Program-made: the position numbers and the translations under genes
Assembly: GCA_900319645.1 (NCBI GenBank)
Contig: ONPG01000016.1
Span: forward strand, 1 to 48,214
Reading direction: 5' to 3'
DNA: 48,214 nucleotides
Source: an uncultured Bacteroidales bacterium
GTDB taxonomy: Bacteria; Bacteroidota; Bacteroidia; Bacteroidales; Paludibacteraceae
The notes under the pieces: model-generated
Seen by the model: only the letters and a program-made list of their open reading frames with translations
The model's database searches: none
Told to the model about the DNA's origin: nothing
Shown here: piece after piece, positions 1,318 to 47,866 of the stretch
Numbering within the stretch: the first letter of the stretch is position 1
How the letters are laid out: the number at the start of each line of letters is the position of its first letter

Positions 1318-1381
1318 CCTCGTAACCTCGTAATCTCGAAACCTCGTGATCTCGTAATCTCGTGATCTCGAAATCTCGAAA
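1318..1381. repeat. Degenerate tandem word tract (CTCGTAAT / CTCGAAAT type)
   Basis: About seven imperfect copies of an 8-9 bp word of the form (A)TCTCG(T/A)(A/G), such as CTCGTAAC, CTCGTAATC, CTCGAAAC, CTCGTGATC. It fills the gap between the DUF3667 promoter and the 3' end of the next gene. The rest of the 1101-1406 gap holds the promoter and AT-rich sequence without a gene. Confidence 0.85.
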
Positions 1382-1406
1382 AATCCCCCTCGCGAAAAGC
1401 GCCCGG

Positions 1407-1799
1407 TCACTCCGGGTGCTTTTCATTTACCAATACCGCCCTCACGAAGTTCGGAAACTGCTTGCAAGCCCCCTCGCTCCTGAGCTGTTCACGCCAGCGG
1501 TCGTACATCTCCATAAACCGCGGATGACTCTTGTCGCGACAGATTGCTCCCGCTTCGCGGCACGCTTCACGCCAGCGCGAACGCTGAGCAACTTCCTTCT
1601 TCGTCAACGGGTGTGCTTTGTAGTCGCGACGCTCCTGCACGTAGATCTCTTTCGGACCCAATGCCAGCACTTCGCCTGTCAACGGATCTTTGACCGACTT
1701 GCGACGGGTAACACAAAGACGGTTTTGTATTTTCTTCTTGCTTAATGCGCCGGTGAAATTCTCAAAACCGGCTGATGGTACATAATGAGCCATATTCAT
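1407..1799 (-). CDS. Unknown small basic protein, 130 aa
   Basis: Not recognised. The likely start is the ATG at 1799 (protein begins MNMAHYVPSAGFENFTGALSK), because the in-frame extension upstream is only a tandem word repeat encoding Lys-Arg-Ser. The protein is soluble, basic and rich in Arg/Lys/Glu, with a middle section (EVLALGPKEIYVQERRDY) that looks like a structured core, then a charged helix (REACREAGAICRD). No signal peptide or membrane segment. It lies just downstream of the DUF3987 gene on the same strand, and I infer that the two form one accessory unit. Codon use is more core-like than that of the genes at 3.7-5.2 kb. Confidence 0.6.
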   Translation of the reverse strand: MNMAHYVPSAGFENFTGALSKKKIQNRLCVTRRKSVKDPLTGEVLALGPKEIYVQERRDYKAHPLTKKEVAQRSRWREACREAGAICRDKSHPRFMEMYDRWREQLRSEGACKQFPNFVRAVLVNEKHPE

Positions 1800-1809
1800 T
1801 TTTTGTTTT

Positions 1810-1871
1810 GACCGTTTTGACCGTTTTGACCGTTTCATGTGCCAAACGGTCAATATGGTCAATACGGTCAT
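1810..1871. repeat. Tandem GACCGTTTT words
   Basis: Three near-perfect copies of the 9-mer GACCGTTTT (1810-1835), followed by a related series GGTCAATAT / GGTCAATAC / GGTCAT. The tract lies directly upstream of the 130-aa gene and, read in frame, would give (KRS)3. Confidence 0.85.
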
Positions 1872-1968
1872 GTCATTTTTTTTAATGCATCAGCCAATTT
1901 TGGCTGATAAATCGTTAGTGATACTTATATATCTTTAGTGGTTTGTTATACATTTTCGAGGGTATTAC

Positions 1969-3237
1969 CTAAGCCGAAGCCAAGCACTTCCTATATACGC
2001 CATGGCGAATTTTGACCACTAACCCTTCTTCTAACCATCCTTCATTCCATCGTGTGGCTGTCCGATAGGATAATCCATGAGCCTTCGCTTCTGTGACCAA
2101 ATTCTGAACTTCAAACTCCTCCGGCAATAAACTCAGCAACATCTTACGTTGGTCCAAAGGCTGCACTTTCGGTACACTCACCTCCTCTGCACCTTTGATC
2201 ATCCGATAAGCCGCCGCCATATGGAGAATCAACTTGTTTCCGATGAGTTCAGCGGTCTGATAATCCTCGTCCGTGCAAGAGAGAGCAACGTCCATTTTGT
2301 CCGAATAGTATTCGGACTTCTTCCATCTTAACGCAGTTAATATCATCGCAATCCGCTCGATATGTACCGCCATTCGCAATACAACGGAATGGAAATTGTC
2401 GCCCAACAACTGCATCAGTGCCGGATAAGCCGTCTCTAAATGTTGTCCTAAACGCGCACGTTGCTCGCTCGTAAGCGAGAACTCTATAGGTCTGCTCTTA
2501 TACAACGCCTGGCAGAGGTCAAAGAGCTGTTGGGCTGCAGTACTCATCACACCGTTCGAACCGCTTGCCGGCTCTACATAACGACTGCTAAATGCCTGCT
2601 GGTCATTCACAATCAGCGTCAAGAGACGCGAGAAATAACCGTTCTCGATACTCGGTACGAGTGCTTTGTACTGGCTGAACGTACCCGTGAGCAACACGCT
2701 CAACTGCGGGCACGCGATACACGAACTATTGTTCGCGCGGTTACGCGTGATCGGCTCATGCTCCGCGGCTTTACGCAAAGCGGTATTGTAGTTCGCTACG
2801 GACGTTCGCCACACGTCGGTAATGACCGATCCTTCGCTCTCGTGGATGTACCCGCGACCGTTCTGGCGTTCCAACTGCTTGTAGAATCCCGGGTAAGACG
2901 AGTCTCCGGCAATAACCAGCGGCGCCGCCTCGTGTACCTTGCTGACGAGTTCCAACGCAAGGTTCGCAATGCCTTTGCCGCAAGCCGCAGAACCGACGAT
3001 AAAGCATTGAAGGTTAGGGTAGTACTTCTTGCCTGTTATCCCATAACGGAAATAGAGATTAGGCATACAGCTGCCCGCAGCTGTCAGCAACGACATCAGC
3101 AACATGTCCCGCTCCGCATCGCTTTGCGCAAGCGACATAATAGGTTGAATCATTACCGGCAACTTCTCCGGCTCAATGTGTTTGGCGATGTGCAGATCCT
3201 GCTCCGCTTCCATCGCAGAAGATAAATTTTGAATCAT
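1969..3237 (-). CDS. DUF3987-type P-loop protein, 422 aa
   Basis: Resembles the DUF3987 proteins common in Bacteroidota accessory regions, which are thought to be helicase/primase-like ATPases. A Walker-A-like loop VGSAACGKG lies near residue 80, followed by a region containing AGDSSYPGFYKQLE and ESEGSVITDVWR, and by CPQLSVLLTGTFSQYKAL. The C-terminal 60 residues (LPEEFEVQNLVTEAKAHGLS, SYRTATRW) look like a winged-helix DNA-binding domain. The start at 3237 (MIQNLSSAME) is preferred over a longer open frame whose first codons lie in repeat-like DNA; 3213 is also possible. There is no signal peptide. It is shorter than many family members, which often carry an extra N-terminal VirE/primase-like domain; none is seen here. 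Role unknown. Confidence 0.65.
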   Translation of the reverse strand: MIQNLSSAMEAEQDLHIAKHIEPEKLPVMIQPIMSLAQSDAERDMLLMSLLTAAGSCMPNLYFRYGITGKKYYPNLQCFIVGSAACGKGIANLALELVSKVHEAAPLVIAGDSSYPGFYKQLERQNGRGYIHESEGSVITDVWRTSVANYNTALRKAAEHEPITRNRANNSSCIACPQLSVLLTGTFSQYKALVPSIENGYFSRLLTLIVNDQQAFSSRYVEPASGSNGVMSTAAQQLFDLCQALYKSRPIEFSLTSEQRARLGQHLETAYPALMQLLGDNFHSVVLRMAVHIERIAMILTALRWKKSEYYSDKMDVALSCTDEDYQTAELIGNKLILHMAAAYRMIKGAEEVSVPKVQPLDQRKMLLSLLPEEFEVQNLVTEAKAHGLSYRTATRWNEGWLEEGLVVKIRHGVYRKCLASA

Positions 3238-3359
3238 AAAGTAAAGTTTTAAATAAAAATGTTTTGTATGTTTATTTCCTTTGTATGCTTTCACTCGAAG
3301 AGTTGCGGAGTTTGGGGATAAAAACTATCTGGGTGCTTGCACACAAGGAGTTTTTAGCC

Positions 3360-46366: not shown

Positions 46367-46390
46367 AAAGAGCAAAAAAACGCAAAATGG

Positions 46391-46423
46391 GGAACTACAA
46401 AACGTAGTTCCTTCATTTTTTTT
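46391..46423 (+). terminator. Terminator of the ferredoxin gene
   Basis: GGAACTAC-N5-GTAGTTCC followed by TTCATTTTTTTT. Confidence 0.92.
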
Positions 46424-46443
46424 ATAAAAAATGCTAACTAAGT

Positions 46444-46475
46444 ATTGCAAAATTCAAAAATTTTTTGTACCTTTG
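46444..46475 (+). promoter_or_regulatory. Promoter of the AAA protein gene
   Basis: ATTG (46444-46447), 20-nt spacer, TACCTTTG (46468-46475). Confidence 0.75.
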
Positions 46476-46504
46476 CACCCAAATTTATAAAATACCGCTA
46501 AATT

Positions 46505-47767
46505 ATGGAAAATGAGGACCAAAAATCTAGCATGTTAGACGCATTTTTTAGGATTCACGACTTTCTGGTGGCTCATGCTTTTATGCCTATCCGTCGTCAA
46601 CTGATGGATGAGATTGACTGGAACGACCGTTTGATCGCTATCAAAGGCGGACGTGGAGTGGGTAAGACGGATTTTCTGCTTACCCGGGTAAAAGAAGTGG
46701 AAGAGGCATGGGACAAAGCAGCAGCCGAGGAACCGATTAACCGTCGCAAACGTAAGACGATGAAAGATATTCGTCCGTGCTTGTATGTGAGCATGAACGA
46801 TTTCTATTTCACCGAGAATACGCTTGTCGATCTGGCGGGACAGTTTGCCAAATCGGGTGGGCAATACCTCTTCCTTGACCAGTTGTTCAAATATCCCAAT
46901 TGGTCGCGCGAGTTGAAACGCTGCTACACTAAGTTCAAAACGCTGCACATCGTGTTCTGCGCTACGCCGGTCATGCCGATCGACGAGGACAACCACGATC
47001 TGATAGATATCGTGCGGACCTACAATCTGCGCGGATTCTCGTTCCGCGAGTATCTCAACCGCCAGACAGGCCTAAGGCTGCGTTCCTATACGCTCGAGGA
47101 CTTGCTCCAACACCACGCTTCTATCTCGCGAGAGATATGCGAACGTGTCAAGCCGCTCGATTATTTCGAGGATTACCTCAAGCACGGCTACTACCCCAGT
47201 TATCTGGAGAGTACCAGCTTCGAGTCCGAGCTGCTCAAGACCATGAACTCGCAGCTCGAAGTGGACGTGCTGATGATCAAGCAAATAGACGTGGCGTGTC
47301 TCCATAAACTGCGCAAACTGCTGTATATTCTCATGCGCGAGACACCCTGTGCGCTCAATATCAGTACTATCTCCGACGAGATAGGCCTGAGCCGCGCTAC
47401 CACGATGAACTATATCAAGTATCTCAAGGACTCGCGTCTGATCAACTTGCTCTATATGGAGGGCAAGACTTTCCCGATGAAGCCGAGCAAGGCCTATATG
47501 CAAAACCCCAACCTGGCGCAGATGATCTTCACACGCGAGGTGAGCAAACAGGACCTCTACGAGACGTGTTTCTACACCTCTATCCACGGCCAGCACAAAG
47601 TGAATGCCACCGAGCGAAATGCGATGTTCGTCGTAGATGGCAGATTCTATTTCGATGTGCGCGAGACACCCACGCTGCGTGACGCCATCCGTCCGACGGC
47701 CGTAGGCGAACTCGAAATGGGTCGTGGCAACCAGATCCCGCTCTGGCTCTTGGGATTCCTCTACTAA
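46505..47767 (+). CDS. AAA_14/DUF4143-like ATP-binding protein with altered Walker B
   Basis: 420 aa. Walker A GGRGVGKT at 48-55. The Walker B region reads YLFLDQLFKYPNWSREL (about 140-156) where relatives have L-D-E-x-H/Q-K-x-P-x-W, so the catalytic Glu is Gln. The sensor-1 segment is HIVFCATP instead of the usual I-x-x-T-G-S-S. The RGFSFREYL part and the C-terminal winged-helix (LNISTISDEIGLSRATTMNY, SRLINLLY) are otherwise typical. By family a cytosolic ATPase of unknown role; this one may bind ATP without turning it over. Own promoter; followed by a word tract and nifJ. Confidence 0.8.
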   Translation: MENEDQKSSMLDAFFRIHDFLVAHAFMPIRRQLMDEIDWNDRLIAIKGGRGVGKTDFLLTRVKEVEEAWDKAAAEEPINRRKRKTMKDIRPCLYVSMNDFYFTENTLVDLAGQFAKSGGQYLFLDQLFKYPNWSRELKRCYTKFKTLHIVFCATPVMPIDEDNHDLIDIVRTYNLRGFSFREYLNRQTGLRLRSYTLEDLLQHHASISREICERVKPLDYFEDYLKHGYYPSYLESTSFESELLKTMNSQLEVDVLMIKQIDVACLHKLRKLLYILMRETPCALNISTISDEIGLSRATTMNYIKYLKDSRLINLLYMEGKTFPMKPSKAYMQNPNLAQMIFTREVSKQDLYETCFYTSIHGQHKVNATERNAMFVVDGRFYFDVRETPTLRDAIRPTAVGELEMGRGNQIPLWLLGFLY

Positions 47768-47866
47768 TCACGTGATCACGAGACCTCGAAATGACGAGAT
47801 CACGAGATCACGAAATATCGAGACCACGAGATCACGAGATCACGAGATCACGAGATCACGAAAAAA
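47766..47866. repeat. Word tract ATCACGAG (about ten copies)
   Basis: ATCACGTG, ATCACGAG, ACCTCGAA, ATGACGAG, ATCACGAG, ATCACGAA, ATATCGAG, ACCACGAG, then four ATCACGAG-type words. It fills the gap between the AAA gene and nifJ. I see no promoter of the TAnnTTTG type in this gap. Confidence 0.95.

Follow-up and report, generated by a model that had tools for sequence, protein, structure and literature searches.

Why are so many intergenic gaps of one bacterial genome filled with short, degenerate tandem words, and does each gap make its own? The question arises in a stretch of 48,214 nucleotides (positions 1-48214 of contig C23, hereafter the window) from an uncultured Bacteroidales bacterium of the Paludibacteraceae, represented by a metagenome-assembled genome (MAG) of 2.64 Mb in 48 contigs, 84% complete. 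The MutS encoded in the window is 89-92% identical to that of five MAGs classed as Bacteroidales or Paludibacteraceae, one of them labelled goat rumen. The tracts are real arrays of quantised period; their vocabulary is biased by genome, their words are replaced between relatives, and they also occur at variable positions of proteins. We regard them as degenerate micro-minisatellites akin to the short tandemly repeated sequences (STRR) of cyanobacteria, which would arise by length-specific slippage, spread or be re-seeded within each genome, and be tolerated in gaps and protein loops. The probability of this reading is put at roughly 0.55.

Arrays were called with Tandem Repeats Finder (TRF). 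Thirteen of the 14 sites named in the first-pass annotation are called as tandem arrays, with scores of at least 43; the exception is TTTAACG at 45.4 kb, a tract that is not tandem and gives no TRF array even at a score of 25. Counted at a score of at least 40 and a period of 5-13, the gaps of the window hold 14 arrays, spread over 12 of the 27 called gaps; 200 dinucleotide-preserving shuffles yield 0.30 on average and never more than 2. The description of the tracts as degenerate and internally homogeneous within a gap is also borne out. The own-genome arrays listed measure at most about 100 bp, less than a typical read, and arrays recur in other assemblies, so an assembly artefact is judged unlikely. 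Genes come from our own script based on open reading frames (ORFs) and hexamers, which missed some (the KilA-N gene, for example), so that the edges of gaps and coding sequences (CDS) carry errors. The arrays of the window are the following.

1319..1378, minus strand: 8-mer array with 7.5 copies of a CGAGATYA-class word, lying in the gap 5' of the DUF3667 gene 219-1100(-); TRF score 78; the class recurs genome-wide.
1805..1870, no strand assigned: two 9-mer arrays, GTTTTGACC and ACGGTCAAT, facing each other across a short spacer; TRF scores 62 and 43; the 9-mer word also lies at C20:80987 and 81023.
3435..3488, no strand assigned: 8-mer array TCTCGATA in a divergent gap; TRF score 45.
9185..9217, plus strand: 8-mer array TCGATATC, 3' of the gene 7887-9179(+); TRF score 45.
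15536..15575, minus strand: 7-mer AATTGAN array, from the stop codon of a TonB-type receptor gene to the start of mutS; TRF score 66.
18089..18125, minus strand: 11-mer array TCTCGCGCCAC; TRF score 53.
18146..18191, minus strand: 7-mer AATTGAN array overlapping the end of the GTPase gene 18179-18814(-) and extending into the gap behind it; TRF score 71.
18598..18620, minus strand: 7-mer AGTCGAA array inside the same gene, which encodes a ribosome-binding GTPase (MMR_HSR1, Pfam); TRF score 39.
31571..31599, plus strand: 11-mer array GAGTGGCGCGA; TRF score 51.
37618..37646, plus strand: 11-mer array CGGTATCTCGT in the gap 3' of the IF-3 gene; TRF score 58.
40445..40529, minus strand: 7-mer AATTGAN array, 12 copies, filling the gap from the stop of a DUF6913 gene to the start of a DHDPS-family (dapA-like) gene; TRF scores 121-142.
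42879..42913, minus strand: 7-mer GGACAAA array, 5 copies, inside ligA, in a stretch that is variable in two orthologues.
45140..45169, plus strand: 11-mer array AGATGCTCGAG; TRF score 53.
46160..46192, plus strand: mixed 7/8-mer AAATCGT array, ending about 13 nt 5' of the ATG of a short ORF that looks ferredoxin-like by eye; TRF scores 50-59.
47767..47863, plus strand: 8-mer array ATCACGAG, 12 copies, in the gap 5' of the POR_N gene at 47909; TRF scores 127-140.

The pattern extends well beyond the window. The own-genome sample amounts to 842 kb (32% of the MAG), comprising the window and 794 kb in 40 further stretches; nine congeners were sampled in part (77-400 kb each), and three pools of MutS-neighbourhood loci (25 of 80 loci) form the outgroup control. 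Ten genomes (own plus nine congeners) enter the density comparison, eight the analyses of word sharing and strand, seven that of arrays in genes and four the random-birth null. The own sample contains 187 arrays in 141 of 429 gaps, where ten shuffles give 2-8, and 87 arrays in 749 kb of CDS; for periods 5-13 the densities are 1.98 per kb of gap and 0.12 per kb of CDS. Gap density is 0.40-3.66 arrays per kb in the ten genus genomes and 0.12-0.34 in the outgroup pools. An enrichment between co-directional genes, raised as a possibility at the start, is not seen (2.01 arrays per kb, versus 1.94 in divergent and 2.17 in convergent gaps).

The periods are sharply quantised. By TRF, 61 own gap arrays have period 7, 39 period 8 and 57 period 11. 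Counts of exact-match runs of 10 over all lags are highest in own gaps at 7, 8 and 11 and next at sums and multiples of these (14, 15, 16, 21, 22, 28), with low values at lags 4-6, 9, 10, 12 and 13. The same counts show no lag peak in the Flavobacteria pool; in the Bacteroides pool the values at lags 7 (0.11 per kb) and 14 are small, and lag 22 reaches 0.42. Units of 7 and 8 nt are combined in single arrays of the own genome, as in AAATCGT with AAATCGTC. Arrays are mostly 7-mers in G049 (25 of 37), G044 (12 of 16) and G086 (13 of 19), and mostly 11-mers in G011 (37 of 59). Avoidance of periods divisible by three was considered as a rule and dropped, because 10 and 13 are also rare.

The impression that each site has a different word does not survive the genome-wide comparison, since every confirmed word of the window recurs elsewhere in the genome. 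AATTGAN forms arrays in three window gaps, and its three-unit pattern has 45+66 matches genome-wide, against 1+1 for the reversed-pattern control. The core ATCTCGNNATCTCG, common to the words at 1.3, 3.4 and 47.8 kb, has 21+21 genome matches and two units of AAATCGT have 58+51, with none for either control. The word at 9.2 kb is that at 3.4 kb and is found again at C15:59645. Further, GTTTTGACC, CGGTATCTCGT and AGATGCTCGAG (one mismatch) reappear in the own-genome sample, CGGTATCTCGT also at C15:93653, C20:239380 and C19:4637, and ACTCTCGCGCC reappears within a gene at C20:118924.

Words in different gaps are counted as similar if they differ by at most one mismatch (7- and 8-mers) or two (11-mers), in any rotation and on either strand. 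A similar word in another gap exists for 58 of 61 own 7-mer arrays, 27 of 34 8-mer arrays and 46 of 57 11-mer arrays. The fraction of similar pairs within genomes exceeds that between genomes for 7-mers (0.226 vs 0.112), 8-mers (0.136 vs 0.035) and 11-mers (0.077 vs 0.024), an excess reached by none of 2000 label shuffles. Own-genome sharing, at 0.259, 0.123 and 0.069 for the three lengths, compares with 0.033, 0.012 and 0.008 for random own-gap words and with 0.052, 0.009 and 0.004 for GC-matched draws. Tested by genome and period, sharing lies above both nulls in eight of nine cases, at 3 to 35 times the null.

Even one word is spoken differently from species to species. The threefold AATTGAN pattern yields 0 to 111 matches per genome and occurs in 59 of 101 genus genomes (own included) and 59 of 247 genomes of the order. 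At the listed sites its free base is largely species-specific. Over 80 sites in 10 congeners, among the matches listed and with every listed unit letter used, agreement between sites of the same genome is 0.67; label shuffling gives 0.29, and at most 0.36 in 500 rounds. Among these matches the base is A in all 31 units (12 sites) of G086, G in 50 of 56 units (14 sites) of G099, and T or C in 46 of 49 units (19 sites) of G083. The reversed control pattern is itself abundant in G244, G201 and G200, from other families of the order (up to 45+49 matches), and is possibly another heptamer dialect.

Among the 11-mers, one element has been amplified in this species. The array of the AATCACGCTAT element, with the three-unit pattern AATCACGCTATAATMACGCTATAATMACGCTAT, occupies 20 own-genome sites, and the exact pattern is found in 0 of 100 congeners. 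Each of ten sample copies has four units and conserved flanks: the left edge is GGTATCGAG-like and itself 11-periodic, and the right side is TTTTAACCAACAAA. In eight of the ten, a TAnnTTTG box, which we take to be the Bacteroidales-type -7 box, lies on the opposite strand 80-184 nt away, a count that has no chance control. Inspected by eye, the ten copies show no evident matching ends. Conserved flanks and confinement to this species among 101 genomes (exact pattern) are what would be expected if the arrays were cargo of conventional mobile elements (miniature inverted-repeat transposable elements, REP/RAYT or a reverse transcriptase), and the genome has one Y1_Tnp match. Such carriage is nevertheless very improbable: by eye, no shared flanks are seen around 37 arrays of 7- and 8-mers and no evident matching ends on the 11-mer element, and an RVT_1 match is absent from the 84%-complete genome, on which ground a reverse transcriptase was rejected as the generator. 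The tracts show no sign of an ordinary transposon, in agreement with the first-pass view, which favoured slippage over transposition. Another dispersed sequence, with the hairpin-like pattern AAAAATGGCACTTTTATTTGCAAGTGTCAT, is common to five sample gaps of the own genome.

The same words enter genes. Confident genes of the seven genomes hold 247 arrays, 104 of them of period 7 or 8. Orthologues are best matches at 45% identity or more, which may include paralogues, and a gene may contribute several arrays; an indel is a difference of two or more residues, and controls are random positions of the same alignments. Where an orthologue is usable, 51 of 63 in-gene 7/8-mers coincide with a protein indel, against 9% of control positions; the figures are 5 of 8 against 12% for 11-mers, 8 of 53 against 5% for periods divisible by three, and 1 of 5 against 10% for other periods. 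In the own sample, 100 kb of CDS hold 5.4 in-gene 7/8-mers on average; G016 has one, G011 none, and 421 kb of outgroup CDS none. Of the in-gene words, 32 of 38 in the own genome (8.4 for random words) and 21 of 21 in G099 (random 5.0) have a match in the gap vocabulary of their genome; the figures are 7 of 12 in G044, 2 of 3 in G049, 1 of 4 in G086 and 0 of 1 in G016. In the loop of the GTPase at 18179-18814, locus L012 has no insert, the window and L009 carry AGTCGAA, and L043 carries AGTTGAG; AGTCGAA also lies within a phosphofructokinase of the own genome. Two unrelated G099 proteins, orthologues of C20:204247-205731 and C20:185639-186907, bear longer similar loop inserts (AVLQQSGPTAQ.. and AVFQQSGLTAS..), which suggests an insert family of longer unit.

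At orthologous positions arrays come and go, and their words change. Between the receptor gene and mutS, the window has AATTGAN, L043 has GATTGAT, L009 a short AATTGA run, L012 no gap, and L014 and L015 the 8-mer CATCACGA; other relatives differ in neighbours or gaps. Upstream of dapA the neighbouring gene is kept in 27 of 30 fetched loci (own included). In 26 relatives the two genes overlap or lie at most 3 nt apart in 15 and are separated by 8-113 nt in 10, and in G046 the start codon was not found and a repeat lies behind the stop codon. Among the 10 with 8-113 nt, G027, G030, G035, G055 and perhaps G006 have repeat words by eye, and the rest are unlike. A different 8-mer occupies the gap before the POR_N gene in G041. 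In 129 gap-by-sister pairs, called at a TRF cut-off of 36 for the sister and 40 for the own genome, arrays are present in both in 20, in the own genome only in 29, in the sister only in 17 and in neither in 63 (Fisher p=0.027, for pairs that are not independent, as one own gap may pair with several sisters). The word differs in 12 of the 20 pairs with arrays in both genomes: 8 have no word of equal length and 4 differ by 3 to 6 mismatches, the other 8 agreeing within two.

A rival view is purely local slippage, in which each array is born from its own flanking sequence and drifts alone. The origin by local slippage that the first-pass annotation favoured is indeed visible at some sites. By eye, the dapA start region lies within the arrays of three congeners and the GTPase loop word keeps V-D/E-like codons, and at the mutS gap of the window and L043 the stop codon is part of the first repeat unit. 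The accompanying idea of site-specific words fails, as the words are shared genome-wide. Sharing between unlinked gaps exceeds the null in nearly every test, the degenerate base of AATTGAN depends largely on the genome, and one exact 11-mer pattern recurs at many sites of this species alone. Word sharing, the 20-site 11-mer array with its conserved flanks and the presence of the same words in genes make pure local slippage insufficient, and we hold it to be unlikely as a full account.

Position and orientation bear on whether the arrays are functional. Anchoring was measured in own co-directional gaps of at least 60 nt. A start no more than 6 nt from the stop codon is found in 6 of 9 AATTGAN arrays, where 1.8 are expected, and in 7 of 17 AAAAYTG/AAAGYYG arrays, where 1.1 are expected. 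Of 10 AAATCGT arrays, 8 end at most 20 nt from the start codon (3.8 expected). None of 28 11-mer arrays lies within 20 nt of a start codon (3.6 expected), and in these gaps no anchoring of own 8-mers to gene ends is seen. Across 20 further own regions, genes hold 4 of 22 AATTGAN sites and gaps the other 18. Where the left gene of a gap site is sense (15 sites), 12 sites begin between 6 nt before and 8 nt after the gene end; all 4 in-gene sites are antisense, as are all 8 in the CDS of seven sampled genomes. Relative to genes, similar own 7-mers have the same strand in 192 cases and the opposite in 61 (271:112 within genomes over all samples). Control by chromosome strand was rejected, there being no bias within contigs over all samples (69:63, 8:5 and 8:6 for 7-, 8- and 11-mers). 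Leaders with arrays are less strongly folded than flipped versions of the same arrays (n=86, p=0.01) and than array-free leaders of the own genome (n=167, p=5e-7), so some words may have a leader function.

These observations would suit arrays acting as functional sites, the 7/8-mers as leader or spacer sites in RNA (protein-binding, or unstructured translation leaders) and the 11-mers as helically phased DNA-binding sites, with the vocabulary following the binding protein. Agreement of strand with genes and not with the chromosome, the placement of AAATCGT before start codons, the weakly folding leaders and the box near most of the ten sampled copies of the 11-mer element all point that way. 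The same words, however, stand inside conserved proteins and change at most orthologous pairs; own 8-mers and 11-mers have no anchoring, and leader folding is confounded by A/T content. We hold a function of the arrays in general to be unlikely.

We return to STRR-like micro-minisatellites. A duplication process that prefers steps of 7-8 nt and 11 nt, polymerase slippage being the likeliest, would make short arrays and re-homogenise them. Arrays would then spread, or the same words be re-seeded, at unlinked sites within a species, perhaps by copying between arrays, giving each genome its own vocabulary. Survival would be limited to tolerated places, namely intergenic gaps and protein loops. 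A coding filter may explain orientation in part, as AATTGAN, a word with a stop codon, would be kept antisense in genes and sense directly after stops in gaps. Most arrays are probably without selected function; co-option may have occurred for AAATCGT arrays just before starts and for the 11-mers of long or divergent gaps.

Several observations count against this account. In own co-directional gaps AATTGAN is sense in 14 cases and antisense in 2, and AAATCGT in 14 and 1; antisense arrays should be tolerated there yet are rare, so the coding filter accounts for orientation only in part. By eye, the 37 7/8-mer arrays show no shared flanks, and microhomology-templated insertion was rejected, arrays compared with empty orthologous sites being not above chance (n=35, p=0.17), results that do not support a copying route. 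Sharing of G099 8-mers (n=8) is not above the null, 11% of 7-mer pairs from different species are also similar, and G027 carries an 11-mer array, AATCACGCACT, close to the own AATCACGCTATAATMACGCTATAATMACGCTAT array. In G016, 5 arrays occupy 3 of 61 gaps, a density of 0.40 per kb that is close to that of the outgroup. Among 71 in-gene arrays of period 7, 8 or 11, the protein with the array exceeds its orthologue in length in 39 cases, falls short of it in 18 and matches it in 14. Upstream of dapA, the array consists by eye of copies of the dapA start region in G030, G035, G055 and perhaps G006. A bolder proposal is a trans-acting process that writes tandem words of 7, 8 or 11 nt at many unlinked coding and non-coding sites, a species changing its word set as a whole, through self-spreading micro-arrays with neither ends nor transposase of their own or through a dedicated repeat-writing enzyme; we rate it as rather improbable.

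STRRs are tandem heptanucleotides dispersed in the genome and mostly intergenic. The cyanobacterial parallel drawn in the first-pass annotation is a fair one, given the dispersed, mainly intergenic heptamer arrays here (61 period-7 gap arrays in 842 kb); STRR units are seven only, whereas units of 8 (39 arrays) and 11 (57 arrays) are also typical here. The nearest published case is the TAACTGA heptamer, known in Beggiatoaceae, Cyanobacteria and some Bacteroidetes, with Paludibacter propionicigenes among its hosts (two sets) (PMC4679880). As here, those 7-nt direct repeats are mostly intergenic, some overlap stop codons, some close relatives lack repeats at the same gap, and the repeats run forward before start codons and in reverse inside ORFs (PMC4679880), an orientation rule that AATTGAN follows. 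One word dominates there, related words being rarely repeated in the main genome (PMC4679880); here there are dozens of words, units also measure 8 and 11 nt, words vary as dialects between species, and arrays coincide with indels of conserved proteins. TAACTGA is not dominant in our genome, its nearest word being AAAACTG (AACTGAA), with 8 arrays.

Cyanobacterial STRRs and the G-rich heptamers of Xanthomonas and Nostoc are likewise mainly intergenic arrays that vary in length and sequence between relatives, and the preference for seven is ascribed, in work quoted there, to slippage sized to the DNA segment held by the polymerase (PMC4692102). Xanthomonas and Nostoc heptamers use one to a few G-rich words, unlike the A/T-rich 7/8-mers here, and 83% of the Xcc repeats of Xanthomonas lie at the same place in a close relative (PMC4692102), against a differing word in 12 of our 20 pairs. 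Borg tandem repeats are similarly fast-evolving, A-rich arrays in gaps and ORFs; their units are essentially confined to one region each, as a rule perfect and, in ORFs, divisible by three (PMC9879509). Ours are shared and degenerate, and period 7 or 8 accounts for 104 of 247 in-gene arrays. The BrickBuilt minisatellite-MITE of Porphyromonas gingivalis resembles the AATCACGCTAT element as an intergenic, dispersed tandem of the Bacteroidales, and is unlike it in its 23-nt unit, leader, tail and small inverted ends (PMC4596501). No report of multi-word arrays in Bacteroidales was found among the open-licence papers searched.

Other features were noticed in the window. Downstream of the 9.2-kb array, an open stretch at 9200-9340 resembles by eye the C-terminal half of an AraC-type helix-turn-helix protein, as if a gene had been interrupted or had lost its front. 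Rfam gives three matches in the window, the FopS small RNA (RF04319, 10556-10628, minus strand) and two tRNAs, none overlapping a counted tract. At 10377-10628 a tandem repeat of 58 bp, which by eye has terminator-like hairpins, overlaps the edge of FopS. Near-identical 3' segments follow two neighbouring genes, one KilA-N, at 4235-4345 and 5180-5260, and a 30-mer from them is common to three sample gaps. The 54-bp repeat at 26578-26760 (3.4 copies, 93% match), in an OmpA-domain gene, resembles an ordinary in-frame protein repeat.

In conclusion, these arrays make the preference of bacterial mini-repeats for seven letters testable, in a genus that offers many genomes, quantised lengths, per-species dialects, and filled and empty gaps and loops to compare. 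Gaps and ORF ends in these genomes are often built of repeats and call for caution. The arrays inside genes suggest that short non-coding repeats may seed in-frame segments of conserved enzymes, here a ribosome-binding GTPase, a phosphofructokinase and probably DNA ligase.

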